Assembly: GCA_017396005.1 (NCBI GenBank)
Contig: JAFQNG010000055.1
Span: 1-36,794 of the forward strand
Length of the DNA stretch: 36,794 nt
Source: Desulfovibrio sp.
Lineage (GTDB): Bacteria; Desulfobacterota; Desulfovibrionia; Desulfovibrionales; Desulfovibrionaceae
Direction: 5' to 3'
Each line of letters starts with the position of its first letter. The first letter of the stretch is position 1. The notes under the pieces are model-generated. The model ran no database searches. It worked only from the letters and a program-made list of their open reading frames with translations, and was not told the origin of the DNA. This document shows, piece after piece, positions 11,084 through 36,794 of this stretch. Both the position numbers and the translations under genes were made by a program.

Positions 11084-11923
11084 TCAGGCGACAAAGAGAT
11101 CATGCGGCACAGTCCTGCCCGCCAGGGCGGCAGCACGCTCCGCCAGCAGGCGAACGGCGCTCCGCCCGCTCTCACCCAGGTCAAGGCTGTAGTCTGTGAC
11201 AAAAGTTTCAATATGGGCCCGGGTGACTGTTTCAGACATCTCCTGTGCATGAAGACGCACAAAAGCAGCGCTGGCGTCAGGATGTGCACGGGCATAACGC
11301 AGACTGTCTGCAATGGCCTGCTGCATGGCCCGGGCTGTTGCAGCCGGCAGGTTACGCCGTACTGCTATGGCCCCCAGAGGCAGAGGCATATGAAAGGACT
11401 CCTCCCACCACTGACCCAGGTCAAGCAGTCGGGTCAGACCAGCCTGCTCATAAGTGAAACGCCCTTCATGGATGATAACGCCCATATCTGCCCGCCCGGA
11501 CCGTACGGCCTCCATCACGTCACTGAACAGCATTTCAGTCCTTGGCCCATGAAAGCCACCATGCAGATCCAGAAGCAGATTGGCTGTAGTCATGCGGCCC
11601 GGTACAGCCACGCTCCCATGGCGCCATGCCGTTTCAGGCAGAGGTTCGCGAGCTACGACCAGAGGGCCACAGCCCCAGCCAAGGGCTGCTCCCGATGAAA
11701 GCAGAGCATAGCCCTGCATAAAGTATGGCAGCGCCCCCAGAGAGATCTTGGTCACATCCAGGCTGTTACGGCAGGCCATGGCATTGAGCTCTTCCACATC
11801 GGCAAAGTGCGGCTGCAGGGGTGCTGGCACAGGCACAAGGCCATGCAGCAGAGCATGAAAGATGAAGGTGTCATTGGGACAGGGCGAAAGCCCCAAGGAT
11901 AACGGACAATCTTGCAACGACAT
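11084..11923 (-). CDS. mqnD: 1,4-dihydroxy-6-naphthoate synthase MqnD
   Basis: Futalosine-pathway enzyme of 279 residues that converts cyclic dehypoxanthinyl futalosine to 1,4-dihydroxy-6-naphthoate. It has a periplasmic-binding-protein-like fold. The N-terminus LGLSPCPNDTFIFHAL and the mid-protein VIIHEGRFTYEQAGL are characteristic MqnD motifs. GGAGG precedes the ATG at 11923 by six bases. It is head-to-head with mqnE, with an 86-base gap that should hold both promoters. It leads a two-gene unit with the MATE exporter. Confidence 0.93.
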   Translation of the reverse strand: MSLQDCPLSLGLSPCPNDTFIFHALLHGLVPVPAPLQPHFADVEELNAMACRNSLDVTKISLGALPYFMQGYALLSSGAALGWGCGPLVVAREPLPETAWRHGSVAVPGRMTTANLLLDLHGGFHGPRTEMLFSDVMEAVRSGRADMGVIIHEGRFTYEQAGLTRLLDLGQWWEESFHMPLPLGAIAVRRNLPAATARAMQQAIADSLRYARAHPDASAAFVRLHAQEMSETVTRAHIETFVTDYSLDLGESGRSAVRLLAERAAALAGRTVPHDLFVA

Positions 11924-11934
11924 GATACCTCCAT

Positions 11935-11963
11935 TTGACAGGGCCGCCGGTGGGGCTTATTCC
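11935..11963 (+). promoter_or_regulatory. Candidate promoter for mqnE-mqnC-mqnA
   Basis: A perfect -35 TTGACA at 11935-11940, 17 bases, then TATTCC at 11958-11963 (3 of 6). It lies in the 86-base mqnD/mqnE divergent gap. The -35 begins 12 bases from the mqnD start codon, so polymerase here could also interfere with the divergent mqnD transcript. Confidence 0.5.
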
Positions 11964-12009
11964 TGTGCAGACAATTTACTTCGCAGCACAAAACAGGACA
12001 GGAACACAA

Positions 12010-13167
12010 ATGCCTGACTCCATGCCCAATGTCGCTCTGAATGCCGCATATTACGCGGCTCTGGGTCTTTCGTCCATCTATGAGAAAGTGCTGGCCGGTC
12101 AGCGCCTGAGTTATGATGACGGCCTGACCCTCTACCGCTGCCCGGACCCTACAGCCATAGGTGCCCTGGCCCATCACGTACGCGTGCGCCTGCATGGCGA
12201 CGCCGCCTTTTACGTGGTTAACCGACAAATTAATTATACCAACGTCTGTGTCAACGGTTGCACCTTCTGCGCCTTTCGTCGTGACGATGCCGATCAGCCC
12301 GGCGCTTTCTGCCTGAGCAAAGCAGATATTCTGGCCCGCCTTGAGGCAGCGCAGCAAGGCGCCCTGCATCTGGATGAGATGCATATGGTGGGCGGTTGCC
12401 ACCCTGGCCTTCGTCTTTCCTGGTTTGAAGATGTTTTGCGCAGCGTTCGTACTGCGTGGCCCGAACTGCCTCTCAAGGCCTTTACCCCGGTAGAAATAGC
12501 GCATTTCGCCAGTATGGAGGGTATCAGTACCCTGGAGGTACTCCAAAGACTCAAGGATGCAGGCCTGGTCATGATGCCCGGCGGTGGCGCAGAAATTTTT
12601 GATGAGGTGCTGCGCAAGGAGATTTGCCCGCACAAAGCCGATGCCGCAGCCTGGCTGCGTATTTCGGGCGAAGCTCACAGCCTCGGCCTCAGGACCAACT
12701 GTACCATGCTGTACGGCCATCTGGAGAGCCTCGAACACCGCGTGGATCATCTTTGCCGCCTGCGTGAGCAGCAGGATAAAAGCGGGGGCTTTACCTGTTT
12801 CATTCCTCTGCCCTTTCTTACAGAAAACAGTCGCCTCAAGCTGCCGGAAGATCGCCTCGGCCCACAGCGTGGGCTGGATCAGCTGCGAACTGTGGCTGTA
12901 GCGCGCCTGATGCTGGATAATATCCCGCACATCAAGGCCTACTGGATCATGATGCCGACCAAACTCGCCCAGACTGCCCTGTGGTACGGCGCAGACGACC
13001 TGGACGGCACCATTATTGAAGAGCATATCGGGCACATGGCGGGCTCGTCTTCAGCACAGGGCATGACCATTGCCGAGCTGGAACATATGATACGTCAGTC
13101 AGGCTTCAGGCCTGTCAGGCGCAATGCCGTCTTTGCCACCGTAGACGCTGCAGAGGAGGCTCTCTGA
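12010..13167 (+). CDS. mqnE: Aminofutalosine synthase MqnE (radical SAM)
   Basis: Radical-SAM enzyme that joins 3-(1-carboxyvinyloxy)benzoate to SAM to give aminofutalosine, the second step of the futalosine pathway. It has 385 residues from the ATG at 12010, chosen because AGGA lies six bases upstream; an earlier in-frame ATG at 11935 would overlap the promoter region. The CVNGCTFC motif places cluster cysteines at about 80, 84 and 87. MPGGGAEIFDE and the EEHIGHMAG segment are typical of the MqnE/CofH-like group. Its stop overlaps the mqnC start by one base (TGATG). Confidence 0.93.
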   Translation: MPDSMPNVALNAAYYAALGLSSIYEKVLAGQRLSYDDGLTLYRCPDPTAIGALAHHVRVRLHGDAAFYVVNRQINYTNVCVNGCTFCAFRRDDADQPGAFCLSKADILARLEAAQQGALHLDEMHMVGGCHPGLRLSWFEDVLRSVRTAWPELPLKAFTPVEIAHFASMEGISTLEVLQRLKDAGLVMMPGGGAEIFDEVLRKEICPHKADAAAWLRISGEAHSLGLRTNCTMLYGHLESLEHRVDHLCRLREQQDKSGGFTCFIPLPFLTENSRLKLPEDRLGPQRGLDQLRTVAVARLMLDNIPHIKAYWIMMPTKLAQTALWYGADDLDGTIIEEHIGHMAGSSSAQGMTIAELEHMIRQSGFRPVRRNAVFATVDAAEEAL

Positions 13168-14291
13168 TGCCCTTTGTACCTGCATACAGTACGTTCGACG
13201 CCACAAACGGCCAGGATGATATACAAAAGGCAGTACAGCAGGTCGCTCTGGGTCGGCGTATCGACCGTCAGACTGCCGAAACCCTGTACTACAAGGCCGA
13301 CCTGCATACTCTGGCCCGGCTGGCCCACAGCCTGCGCCTGCGTCTGCACCCTGAACCGGTGGTAACCTATGTGGGTGACCGCAATATCAACTATTCCAAT
13401 ATCTGCGTCTGTGCCTGCCGTTTCTGTGCTTTCTTTCGTACGCCTGAGAGCGGGGAAGGCTATATTATCAGCCGGGAAGAAATGAAACAGAAAATTGATG
13501 AAACCCTGCGCCTGGGGGGAACGCAGATCCTGCTCCAGGGTGGGCATCACCCGGACCTGCCGCTGGAATGGTATGAAGATCTCTTGCGATGGATGCGCAG
13601 CACATGGCCCGGCCTGCATATCCACGCCTTTTCACCCCCGGAGATCTTTTTCTGGTCCCGGAGCTTCAACCTTGCAGTCCCCGAAGTACTCCGTCGCCTG
13701 AAAGAAGCCGGACTGGACTCCATACCCGGAGGTGGTGCGGAAATTCTGCACAATGAGGTACGCAGACAGGTTTCACCCAATAAATGCTCTGCTGACCAGT
13801 GGCTTCAGGTTATGGAAGAAGCGCACAAACTGGGCATGCGTACCACTGCCACCATGATGTTCGGCCATGAAGAGGCGCCCGCGCACAGGCTAGATCACCT
13901 CTTTGCCATACGGGATCTGCAGGATCGTACCAGCGGTTTTACGGCATTCATACCCTGGACGTTCCAGCCTGCACATACGCGCATTGACTGCGCTCCGCTG
14001 CCTGCTCCGGCTTATCTGCGTCTTCTGGCCCTCTCCCGTCTGGTGCTGGACAATATAGCCAATATACAGGCATCCTGGGTGACCATGGGCCCTGAGGTGG
14101 CCCAACTGGCTCTTTACTACGGTGCCAATGATTTCGGCTCCCTGATGATCGAAGAAAATGTCGTGGCTGCTGCCGGTGTTTCCTATCGTCTCAGCCGCAA
14201 CGAAATCCACAGGATCATCCGGGCCGCCGGTTTTACCCCGGTGCAGCGTCTTATGGACTACAGGCCTGTTGAGCCCCAGCCTGAAGAATGA
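13167..14291 (+). CDS. mqnC: Cyclic dehypoxanthinyl futalosine synthase MqnC (radical SAM)
   Basis: Radical-SAM cyclase of 374 residues that converts dehypoxanthinyl futalosine to its cyclic form. The CVCACRFC motif gives cluster cysteines at about 80, 84 and 87. QGGHHPDLPLEWY, SIPGGGAEIL and the C-terminal EENVVAAAG segment are standard for MqnC. It is similar in layout to mqnE directly upstream, consistent with an ancient duplication within the family. Start ATG at 13167 overlaps the mqnE stop. The intervening MqnB-type nucleosidase is not encoded in this window. Confidence 0.94.
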   Translation: MPFVPAYSTFDATNGQDDIQKAVQQVALGRRIDRQTAETLYYKADLHTLARLAHSLRLRLHPEPVVTYVGDRNINYSNICVCACRFCAFFRTPESGEGYIISREEMKQKIDETLRLGGTQILLQGGHHPDLPLEWYEDLLRWMRSTWPGLHIHAFSPPEIFFWSRSFNLAVPEVLRRLKEAGLDSIPGGGAEILHNEVRRQVSPNKCSADQWLQVMEEAHKLGMRTTATMMFGHEEAPAHRLDHLFAIRDLQDRTSGFTAFIPWTFQPAHTRIDCAPLPAPAYLRLLALSRLVLDNIANIQASWVTMGPEVAQLALYYGANDFGSLMIEENVVAAAGVSYRLSRNEIHRIIRAAGFTPVQRLMDYRPVEPQPEE

Positions 14292-14351
14292 TGCCAGGCA
14301 GGGCAACAGGCAGCCACACCTGACGATATGCCATCCCGATAAGGAGATCCT

Positions 14352-15191
14352 GTGAAAGCCCAGCCCGTCCTGCGCATGGGGCGCATCAGTTATTTGAATG
14401 TATTGCCCATCTACCACCCTCTTGAAGCGGGTATACTGCCTCATGACTACGAACTGGTAGCAGCCCCCCCTGCCCTGCTCAACGAAATGATGCAACGGGG
14501 CGAGCTGCATGTCTCGTCCTGCTCCTGCTTCGAGTACGCCCGCAGCCCGGAGCGCTATTACCTCGTAGAAGATCTCTCCATCGGCTCACGCGGACCTGTC
14601 ATGAGTGTGCTTCTGCTCTCACGTCTGCCGCTGCGAGAACTGAACGGACACGAAATTTACATCAGCGGCGAAAGCCACACCTCCGTGGCGCTGCTGCGTC
14701 TGCTCATGCGCGAATATTACGGGCTTGAGGTACGCTATAGATCCGGGCGGGTATCCACGGCACTACGCTCAGACATGCCGCCTACGGCTTTTCTGGCCAT
14801 CGGCGATGAAGCCCTGCAACTGCGTGCACACCCGGACTATCCTTACAGACTGGACATGGCTGAAGCCTGGCGGGAATGGACAGGCCTGCCCTTCATCTTC
14901 GGCCTCTGGGTTGTCAGTCGTCAGGCAGCAGATCAGAAGATTTTCCCCTGTGACCCCGGCGAACTGTTACGGCAGGGACGTGACTGGGGCCTGAGCCATA
15001 TGGATGTGATCCTGGAGCTTACAGGGCACGGCTGCCCTCTCTCTCGGGAAGAACTGCGTACCTACTATCGTGACGGCCTGCTCTATACCCTGAGAGATGA
15101 TGAGCTGCGCGGGCTTGAAAGTTTCTATCAAAAGCTGGCGGCGGCAAAAATGATTGCCGCCGCCCCGCCTCTGGAATTTTACAGATTCTGA
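14352..15191 (+). CDS. mqnA: Chorismate dehydratase MqnA
   Basis: First enzyme of the futalosine pathway, 279 residues, dehydrating chorismate to 3-(1-carboxyvinyloxy)benzoate. Motifs include MGRISYLNVLPIYH near the N-terminus, VSSCSCFEYAR and the PFIFGLWVVSRQ strand. The start is GTG at 14352, five bases after AAGGAG. A 60-base gap separates it from mqnC, larger than the other joins of the operon but without a clear terminator. It converges on nhaC eight bases beyond its stop. Confidence 0.93.
   Translation: MKAQPVLRMGRISYLNVLPIYHPLEAGILPHDYELVAAPPALLNEMMQRGELHVSSCSCFEYARSPERYYLVEDLSIGSRGPVMSVLLLSRLPLRELNGHEIYISGESHTSVALLRLLMREYYGLEVRYRSGRVSTALRSDMPPTAFLAIGDEALQLRAHPDYPYRLDMAEAWREWTGLPFIFGLWVVSRQAADQKIFPCDPGELLRQGRDWGLSHMDVILELTGHGCPLSREELRTYYRDGLLYTLRDDELRGLESFYQKLAAAKMIAAAPPLEFYRF
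15137..15164. other. Perfect 11-bp hairpin within the end of mqnA
   Basis: GGCGGCGGCAA, a six-base loop, then TTGCCGCCGCC, inside the last codons of mqnA between the convergent mqnA and nhaC genes. No U-tract follows on either strand. It may stop transcription or RNA decay where the two operons collide, as no conventional terminator fits in the eight-base gap. Confidence 0.45.
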
Positions 15192-35238: not shown

Positions 35239-36159
35239 CTACACGCTGTAACGGTGCAGCCAGCCTTCGTATTGCGGGCTTTCACCCTTGACCAGCTTGA
35301 AAAACTCACGTTGCAGATGCTGTGTGACAGGCCCGGCCTTGCCTTCACCTATGCTGCGATTGTCAAGCTCGCGTATGGGCGTCAGTTCAGCCGCTGTGCC
35401 GGTAAAGAAGGCTTCATCGGCAATATAGAATTCATCGCGGGTGAACTGCTGCTCCACCACGGTATAGCCCAGGTCCTGCGCCAGGGTCATGATGGACTGA
35501 CGGGTAATGCCGCCCAGGATGGACGTCCACGGTGTTGTTTTGACGATGCCGTCACGCACAATGAAAATATTCTCACCCGTGGCCTCAGATACATAGCCGT
35601 TGGTATCCAGCATGACAGCCTCGTCATAGCCGTCTTCCTTGGCTTCGATCTTGGCCAGGATGGAATTGACATAGTTACCGGCAGCCTTGGCCTTGGACAT
35701 GGTGGTATTGACGTGGGCACGGGCAAAGGTGCTTGTTTTGACACGAATGCCCTTTTCAAGGGCTTCGGCACCCAGATAAGCCCCCCACGGCCAGACAGCG
35801 ATGATGGTCTGCACAGGGTTCTGGCCAGGGTAAACCCCCATTTCACCATAGCCCACGAAAGACAACGGGCGAATATAGCCAGCAGCCAGTTTATTGACCG
35901 TCAGGGTCTCAAGGCAGGCATCGGCCAGCTGTTCGGCAGTATAGGGCAAAGCCATGCGCATGATTTTGGCAGAATTGCAAAGACGCTTGCAATGGTCCTC
36001 CAAACGGAAGACGGCAGAACCGCCACCCGTGCAGGCATAGGCGCGAATACCTTCAAACACACCGCTGCCATAGTGCAGGGCATGGGTGAGCACATGGACC
36101 TGCGCCTCATCCCAGGGCAACATCTTACCGTCGAACCAGATATACTTCATGGTCTGCAT
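35239..36159 (-). CDS. ilvE: Branched-chain amino acid aminotransferase IlvE
   Basis: PLP-dependent fold-type IV transaminase of 306 residues, the last step of Leu, Ile and Val synthesis. It shows HALHYGSGVFEGIRAY at the N-terminus, YIRPLSFVGYGEMGV, the PLP lysine at about residue 158 in SKAKAAGNYVNSILAK and the E-A-T-G-E-N-I-F motif (VSEATGENIFIV). GAGG precedes the ATG at 36159 by six bases. A single-gene unit ended by the hairpin at 35207-35229. No leader peptide with clustered Leu/Ile/Val codons was recognised upstream. Confidence 0.96.
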   Translation of the reverse strand: MQTMKYIWFDGKMLPWDEAQVHVLTHALHYGSGVFEGIRAYACTGGGSAVFRLEDHCKRLCNSAKIMRMALPYTAEQLADACLETLTVNKLAAGYIRPLSFVGYGEMGVYPGQNPVQTIIAVWPWGAYLGAEALEKGIRVKTSTFARAHVNTTMSKAKAAGNYVNSILAKIEAKEDGYDEAVMLDTNGYVSEATGENIFIVRDGIVKTTPWTSILGGITRQSIMTLAQDLGYTVVEQQFTRDEFYIADEAFFTGTAAELTPIRELDNRSIGEGKAGPVTQHLQREFFKLVKGESPQYEGWLHRYSV

Positions 36160-36422
36160 AGCGAACCTCGCAAGAGCAGTTGAATGGAAAGGGCCGCACG
36201 ATCAGCGCCCGCGTAAGTGTTGAAGCTTACTGGAAAGCTCCCGGCAAGGCAAGTATCCCCTGCTGCTCTTCATGGCCGACACATCTGGAATCTGAATGCC
36301 ATCTGCCAGGAGACGCAAGGCCATACAGAGCAAGGGATATGCCGGACCAGACTTTGAAGCTTTGAAAAAAAAGAGAAAAAAACCGAAAAAAAGAGAGGTT
36401 CGTAACCATCTGAAATAATTGA
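36160..36422. other. Intergenic region upstream of ilvE without a supportable gene
   Basis: No convincing gene, tRNA or structured RNA was seen. A weak ilvE promoter could be TTGCCT-N17-TAAGCT on the minus strand around 36228-36256. Near 36364-36395 there are three long A-runs (T-runs on the minus strand) in otherwise GC-rich DNA. A minus-strand reading frame of 87 codons (36202-36465) has no ribosome binding site or recognisable content and begins inside the repeat. Confidence 0.4.
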
Positions 36423-36463
36423 GATTCATCGACAGACCGACTGTCGATGAATCGTTGTTTTTC
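36423..36463 (+). repeat. Left repeat: 31-bp dyad, also terminator-like
   Basis: Perfect dyad with 13-base arms GATTCATCGACAG / CTGTCGATGAATC around a five-base centre ACCGA (36423-36453), followed on the plus strand by GTTGTTTTTC. Its 19 bases at 36431-36449 (GACAGACCGACTGTCGATG) recur as an exact reverse complement at 36592-36610. The arm-centre-arm form resembles core sites of site-specific recombinases; as RNA it could also terminate a plus-strand transcript. Confidence 0.75.
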
Positions 36464-36591
36464 AATAGCTGAGAGGCCTGTTTTTGGCAATACCCTCTCT
36501 TAAGCCCTATAATTTTATCAGACGTTTACAAAAATAAATACAATAAATTAAGTATGTTACATATTATTTAACACTCTCTGACAAACTCTGT
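36450..36591. other. Candidate invertible segment carrying a promoter
   Basis: A 142-base AT-rich stretch bounded by exact 19-base inverted repeats. It contains one strong outward promoter facing the glycosyltransferase-like gene. If the repeats recombine, the promoter would instead face ilvE. No strong promoter was recognised on the opposite strand of the segment. No recombinase gene is in the window, so inversion is inferred from architecture only. Confidence 0.5.
36484..36513 (+). promoter_or_regulatory. Strong sigma-70-type promoter inside the inverted repeats
   Basis: TTGGCA at 36484-36489 (5 of 6), 18 bases, perfect TATAAT at 36508-36513. The predicted start is near 36520, leaving a leader of about 134 bases that carries the right repeat. 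Confidence 0.7.
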
Positions 36592-36610
36592 CATCGACAG
36601 TCGGTCTGTC
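36592..36610 (-). repeat. Right inverted repeat, exact copy of 36431-36449
   Basis: CATCGACAGTCGGTCTGTC, the exact reverse complement of the left repeat. Its centre is TCGGT (36601-36605), flanked by GACAG and CTGTC; the outer arms match less perfectly than in the left copy. It lies in the untranslated leader of the downstream gene, where it could also fold. Confidence 0.85.
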
Positions 36611-36653
36611 AGTGACGCCTGCAGGCTTCACGACAGCAAAACATGGCGGCAGC

Positions 36654-36794
36654 ATGGAAAGGACAGAACTTACCTTCTCGATCCTGGTGACTACACAGGG
36701 CAGAACGCACGAGCTTGCGGCCTTCATGCGTTCCCTGTGTCAGCAGGGGGGTGTGAGCTGCACGCTTATCGCAGGCATGCAGGAGACGCCCACA
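36654..36794 (+). CDS. Start of a family-2-like glycosyltransferase (truncated by window edge)
   Basis: Only 47 codons are visible from the ATG at 36654. The opening FSILVTTQGRTHELAAFMRS follows the pattern of GT-A (family 2) glycosyltransferases, a hydrophobic strand followed by a polar turn and a helix (compare SVVIPTYNR). That would suit a surface glycan gene. No strong ribosome binding site precedes it. The catalytic DXD region lies beyond the window, so the family call is tentative. Confidence 0.5.
   Translation, partial: MERTELTFSILVTTQGRTHELAAFMRSLCQQGGVSCTLIAGMQETPT

Follow-up and report, generated by a model that had tools for sequence, protein, structure and literature searches.

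The right-hand end of this stretch of DNA carries two inverted repeats in front of the start of a glycosyltransferase-like gene, raising the question of whether the segment between them inverts and, if so, which way its promoter now points. The window, meaning the whole stretch of 36,794 nt analyzed, is the end of contig C21 in a 2.26-Mb draft genome of 100 contigs that is estimated to be 85.6% complete. The two exact 19-base inverted repeats around 142 bases described in a first-pass annotation were recovered at 36431-36449 (plus strand) and 36592-36610 (minus strand), and they extend to 25-nt arms at 36426-36450 and 36591-36615 with 92% complementarity. The left arm (plus strand) contains the core GACAGACCGACTGTC at 36431-36445 with the asymmetric centre ACCGA at 36436-36440, and the inverted right arm (minus strand) contains a core at 36596-36610 with the centre TCGGT at 36601-36605; the opposed five-base centres within a dyad, also reported earlier, were therefore confirmed. 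Around its 5-nt centre, the left arm forms a perfect 13-bp dyad (36423-36453). Searching the window with the 19-mer at up to 3 mismatches gave 3 matches versus 0.01 expected, a number reached by 0 of 100 shuffles, and the third match comes from the opposite strand of the left arm. An asymmetric centre that is identical in inverted order is one of the features that mark a tyrosine-recombinase inverton, and the centre-matched arms predict an invertible segment from 36436 to 36605, centre to centre. The contig ends 184 nt beyond the right core, and no recombinase gene adjoining the switch was visible up to that end.

A genome-wide search with the arm and then with the bare core showed that the structure at C21 recurs elsewhere in the genome. 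The search yielded 16 complete copies (C21, C22, C26, C29, C34, C47, C48, C50, C55, C66, two at C68, C72, C90, C96, and C100), together with one further copy at C30 that is cut by the contig end. The family cores resemble GACAG-N5-CTGTC and are 162-165 bp apart from start to start. Nine of the 17 copies lie less than 700 nt from a contig end versus 6.2% expected per copy, an excess that the repeats alone could cause. Five single cores (C44, C46, C60, C61, and C91) had no partner, and they look like background because a reversed control pattern gave 9 matches.

Eleven different 5-bp centres are in use across these loci. Counted with no centre condition and at most one mismatch per site, the centres were reverse-complementary within the pair in 15 of 15 pairs; they also match at C50, which has two mismatches in one site and stands outside this count. 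This count is the free test of matching, since one copy search demanded a centre match within one base and both the 16-copy recovery and the recombinase-first scan described below also favour matched centres. Centre identity between loci was 0.058 (5.8%), with ACCGA common to C21, C29, and C68 and ACAGA common to C48, C50, and C66. Tyrosine recombinases require a match in the overlap that they exchange, so matched centres would be expected where the two sites of a pair recombine with each other; their inverted order would lead to inversion and not to deletion.

The same layout is found in relatives within the Desulfovibrionaceae. The exact pattern, searched without a centre condition in the genomes of 84,980 species, occurred in 49 stretches, and the centres matched in inverted order in 19 of 19 Desulfovibrionaceae stretches (one of them titled Deltaproteobacteria and being the same element as in a family genome) versus 1 of 30 others. 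This one, L075 from Desulfarculaceae, has neither the promoter motif nor a recombinase and was left out of the switch family, as its matched centres may be due to chance. A match was present in 10 of 199 family genomes, this genome counted, and no match was found in the viral contigs scanned with the exact pattern. DNA of the C21 locus gave short matches in 4 of 60 other genomes of the genus, all of them to the arms or to short pieces. In one Bacteroidetes MAG (B4_bin.17), five stretches (L074, L094, L102, L105, and L112) show the spaced pattern with centres complementary at 3 or 4 of 5 positions, perhaps a repeated element of another kind.

The first-pass annotation had called for a repeat-associated recombinase in the genome, and such enzymes were found. 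Of 21 PF00589 matches, genes adjoining 7 of the 16 copies (C22, C26, C29, C47, C55, C90, and C96) lie within about 0.5 kb of the switch, all with the 3' end facing it; for the other 9 copies, C21 among them, no recombinase gene was found next to the switch. The linked enzymes were placed by sequence in PF00589, with a XerA match at 1.2e-13. In a tree of 26 rows, which left out rows shorter than 180 aa (C96 and L077) and 5 of the 21 PF00589 matches of this genome, six linked enzymes of this genome and ten of relatives formed one clade with 97/97 support, apart from nine other integrases of the same genome and from the recombinase near L098. The active-site boxes TG-R-E and HD(L/F)RH are present in the six linked genes of this genome long enough to show both. 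Relatives of the C29 recombinase at E ≤1e-60 occur in 14 of 119 family genomes, this genome counted, and a recombinase-first scan placed a matched pair beside 15 of 25 recombinase matches; two of the misses arose from the end limit of the script (L166, which is C90) and from a sequence that ends at the recombinase (L172).

At C21 and the other copies with no adjoining gene, a recombinase presumably acts in trans. The best candidate source is C29, which shares the ACCGA centre and resembles C21 (74% identity over 266 nt). Neither of the two PF00239 (serine recombinase) genes of the genome has a core pair within 1.5 kb, and a serine invertase of the Mpi type was therefore set aside as a linked enzyme, although one acting in trans is conceivable. 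IntDes recombinases of Desulfovibrio, as described in PMC8138268, have the first catalytic histidine changed to tyrosine and the first arginine shifted; membership of the linked enzymes in that group was rejected, as the TG-R-E and HD(L/F)RH boxes are kept. Two observations concern individual recombinase genes. At L079 (6459), L080 (2242), and L093 (7067), and also at C55 and L163, the recombinase frame runs through the near arm into the switch, and inversion would thus alter the C-terminal residues of the enzyme. At L054 (482-1397), the recombinase gene is broken, its matches being distributed over three reading frames, and the switch centres match nonetheless.

Which way the promoter of the switch points was judged from an alignment of 35 elements on the nearest core. 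TTGCCA and TATTGA were found exactly 17 nt apart; TATTGA ends 16 nt short of the core, and a conserved A follows TATTGA at a distance of about 7 nt. At C21, this promoter-like element occupies 36462-36490 on the minus strand (TTGCCA at 36490-36485 and TATTGA at 36467-36462), points left, ends 16 nt before the left-arm core, and reads outward through that arm; judging by the conserved A column, transcription is predicted to start near 36455 on the minus strand. In exact register and with at least 8 of 12 matches, TTGCCA-N17-TATTGA was present in 16/16 copies of this genome and in 15/21 relatives versus 0.7% of shuffled interiors, a comparison that overstates the significance of the promoter because the copies are related by descent. 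The match was 12/12 in 12 of the 16 copies, and three more relatives score 9 after a one-base shift of the element. TATTGA agrees with TATAAT at 3 of 6 positions. The aligned elements also share a T-run 88-91 nt inside the promoter-side core, perhaps a bend or a site for an accessory protein.

On this comparison of sequences, the outward TTGCCA-N17-TATTGA probably serves as the promoter, in place of the plus-strand element proposed by the first-pass annotation. If the outward element is right, the C21 promoter points to the branched-chain aminotransferase-like gene at 35239-36159 (minus strand), which we take to be ilvE, and the glycosyltransferase gene at 36654 is therefore OFF, a state that we regard as probable. 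As the switch now stands, the outward promoter lies upstream of ilvE, a gene that is not thought to be the target of the switch. The earlier statement that the gene at 36654 is ON is thus probably wrong, as the element kept in 16/16 copies points left, away from that gene.

Orientation was compared among loci and relatives, as had been suggested, and was found to differ. By the outward element, 14 copies of this genome are OFF and 1 (C55) is ON, with C30 and C100 not judged; the 26 relatives, a count that includes L054 with its broken recombinase gene and L098 with its recombinase outside the clade, comprise 14 OFF and 6 ON, the remaining 6 being left unjudged (no promoter call in 4, side unknown in 2). 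The target side was set by the author from the side of the recombinase or from reading of the ORFs, so that orientation is relative to the target or the recombinase; at C26 and C90, where no target gene is visible, it was set opposite the recombinase. Among the 35 judged, 28 were OFF versus 7 ON, and this strong bias could mean that the promoter strand was misread. Desulfovibrio sp. ZJ369 has one copy ON (L072) and another OFF (L103). In 2 of 36 elements tested, a contig end folds back: C100 begins with 98 nt that repeat, in exact reverse complement (98/98), the flank on the far side of its switch, and a contig of a relative (L069) ends in the same way over 22/22 nt. An assembler makes such a fold-back when a segment occurs in both orientations, and these ends are as expected if both orientations were present among the sequenced cells; the alternative is a chimeric join or an assembly artefact.

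The predicted target at C21 (36654-36794, plus strand) is a family 2 glycosyltransferase-like gene of which the contig holds the first 47 codons. These 47 aa alone matched no Pfam family, and they are 100% identical over their length to the start of a gene at C68 that is itself above the Pfam cut-off for Glycos_transf_2, by which the earlier naming of the gene as glycosyltransferase-like was upheld. The gene start at C50 shares 98% identity over 41 aa with the C68 glycosyltransferase. The neighbouring genes taken as targets are mostly surface-related. Besides those above, they comprise glycosyltransferases over the Pfam cut-off at C66 and C55, GT4-like glycosyltransferases below cut-offs at C48 and C72, DUF4347/RTX proteins at C34 and the second C68 copy (C68b), an autotransporter at C29, a Desulfovibrio porin at C96, a nucleotidyltransferase at C47, and a type I polyketide synthase at C22; no target gene was visible at C26, C30, C90, and C100. 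Those of relatives include flagellin (L083), a chemoreceptor (L068), glycosyltransferases (L071, L072, and L103), and a DegT-type aminotransferase (L078). Elsewhere in the window, further reading frames at 1-1300 and 11084-15191 resemble those of the futalosine route to menaquinone.

The borders of similarity among copies indicate how the switch has spread. Similarity of C21 to six other copies (C29, C30, C48, C50, C66, and C68) begins between 36360 and 36376, which is 55-71 nt left of the core, within a shared left flank (36360-36425) that is T-rich on the minus strand. On the right, similarity to C29, C48, and C66 stops 11-29 nt beyond the right core, and that to C68 and C50 continues into the gene; over some 410-430 nt that take in the gene start, C21, C50, and C68 are 92-93% identical. 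These boundaries suggest that a cassette of about 260 nt has come to lie before various genes, in some cases being copied together with the gene behind it. In relatives, no core was present upstream of ilvE in 18 of 18 testable species (700 nt each; a 19th locus offered 37 nt only), so the insertion at C21 appears recent or peculiar to the lineage. The glycosyltransferase of C68 also has a 78% identical copy at G000:C72:95546-96115, whose similarity to C21 starts just upstream of the gene (window position 36646) and does not include the switch.

Three other explanations were weighed against an inversion switch with an outward promoter. One keeps the invertible element and takes TTGGCA-N18-TATAAT on the plus strand (36484-36513; TTGGCA at 36484-36489, TATAAT at 36508-36513) as the active promoter, with the gene at 36654 ON. 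The element is present as the first-pass annotation described it, aimed at 36654 and overlapping the conserved -35 on the other strand, and it has 11 of 12 matches to the consensus; were it the promoter, the majority of the assembled copies would be in the ON state. A plus-strand -10 with at least 5/6 matches to TATAAT occurs in 5 of 16 copies, as TATAAT itself in C21 and C50 and at 5/6 in C48, C66, and C68, whereas in the other 11 the best -10 at a spacing of 16-18 nt has at most 4/6 matches and no fixed spacing. Over the 35 rows, column information is about 0.1-0.6 bits at the plus-strand -10 versus 0.87-1.58 for TATTGA. Its role as an active promoter is thus probably mistaken, and we consider this alternative unlikely, the least so of the three.

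A switch acting mainly through a terminator, in which the left-arm hairpin halts transcripts entering the segment, is considerably less probable still. Such a switch is exemplified by cwpV of Clostridioides difficile, where the promoter lies outside the inverted region (PMC2784873). A terminator-like match at 36423-36453 on the plus strand (with GTTGTTTTTC following it), a stable 13-bp RNA hairpin on the minus strand (z -3.0), and the prospect of recombinase transcripts running into the switch in the recombinase-linked copies all speak for it; the T-run beside the arm is, however, not kept among the copies compared while the promoter-like element is, and immediately to the left of the C21 switch there is no rightward gene. 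Slightest of all is the chance that the repeats are an operator or a MITE-like mobile element that does not invert and whose centres match through copying of whole cassettes. Cassettes are indeed copied, as C21, C50, and C68 show, and the other species with a testable ilvE upstream region have no element there. Copying nevertheless leaves unexplained why 11 centres are each complementary between arms 162-165 bp apart, and it accounts neither for the linked recombinases of one clade nor for the fold-back contig ends and the differing orientations.

The element at C21 is accordingly best described as a site-specific inversion switch, a prediction from sequence in which we have high confidence; the phase-variable type proposed at the outset is supported by the family (16 copies, matched centres, linked recombinases, and fold-backs), and inversion at C21 itself is predicted. 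The whole account, a tyrosine-recombinase inversion switch with an outward promoter and its gene now OFF, is held with good but lesser confidence. On this account, both GACAG-N5-CTGTC cores, inverted relative to each other, would be recognized by a tyrosine recombinase, and strand exchange inside the matched 5-bp centres would turn round a segment of about 170 bp. The promoter near one end of the segment would read outward through the near arm, driving the glycosyltransferase gene at 36654 in one orientation and reading left in the present one, where the gene is probably OFF. C21 is one member of a genome-wide set in which the centres would serve as locus-specific addresses. A speculative extension, which we think improbable as it stands, is an address-coded network in which at least 16 switches with private 5-bp centres are served by a single recombinase clade and each locus flips alone. 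Recombination between loci with a common address (the ACCGA or ACAGA sets) could then reshuffle the pairing of genes and switches, and in recombinase-linked copies the OFF promoter could read antisense into the recombinase gene and stabilize the OFF state.

The mechanism is of a known kind. In the E. coli fim switch (FimB/FimE), a tyrosine recombinase likewise adjoins the switch and the promoter reads out through one arm; that system is a single locus, in contrast to the multi-locus set here, and the linked enzymes fall far short of the NCBIfam cut-off for tyrosine-type DNA invertases (the C26 enzyme reaches 21.9 of the 221 bits). The Mpi system of Bacteroides fragilis resembles the set in that a single gut genome has numerous invertible promoters controlling surface polysaccharides, but Mpi is a serine invertase and the linked enzymes here are tyrosine recombinases. 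RecV of C. difficile is a tyrosine recombinase of the XerC/XerD family acting in trans on several switches (PMC2784873 and PMC8844915), and its cwpV, cmr, and flagellar switches share imperfect inverted repeats of about 20 bp and surface-related targets; the present set differs in its many copies with their own linked recombinase, in an outward promoter that the copies have in common at a fixed register, and in its locus-specific centres. Gut invertons of the PhaseFinder type, as presented in PMC11892184, likewise have inverted repeats, embedded promoters, and invertase genes that lie nearby in a non-regulatable orientation. Neither PMC11892184 nor PMC10939037 contains 'Desulfo' or 'Bilophila' in its main text, and the literature search found no inverton set described for Desulfovibrionaceae; a large set with private centres was not found described in the literature searched.

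The per-locus centres would offer natural orthogonal recombination sites for tests of overlap matching by tyrosine recombinases. If the switches flip, a sulfate-reducing gut lineage would vary its surface polysaccharides, adhesin-like proteins, and a porin, and in a relative also flagellin, through a multi-locus DNA switch, which would be relevant to the phage resistance, immune recognition, and colonization of these bacteria.
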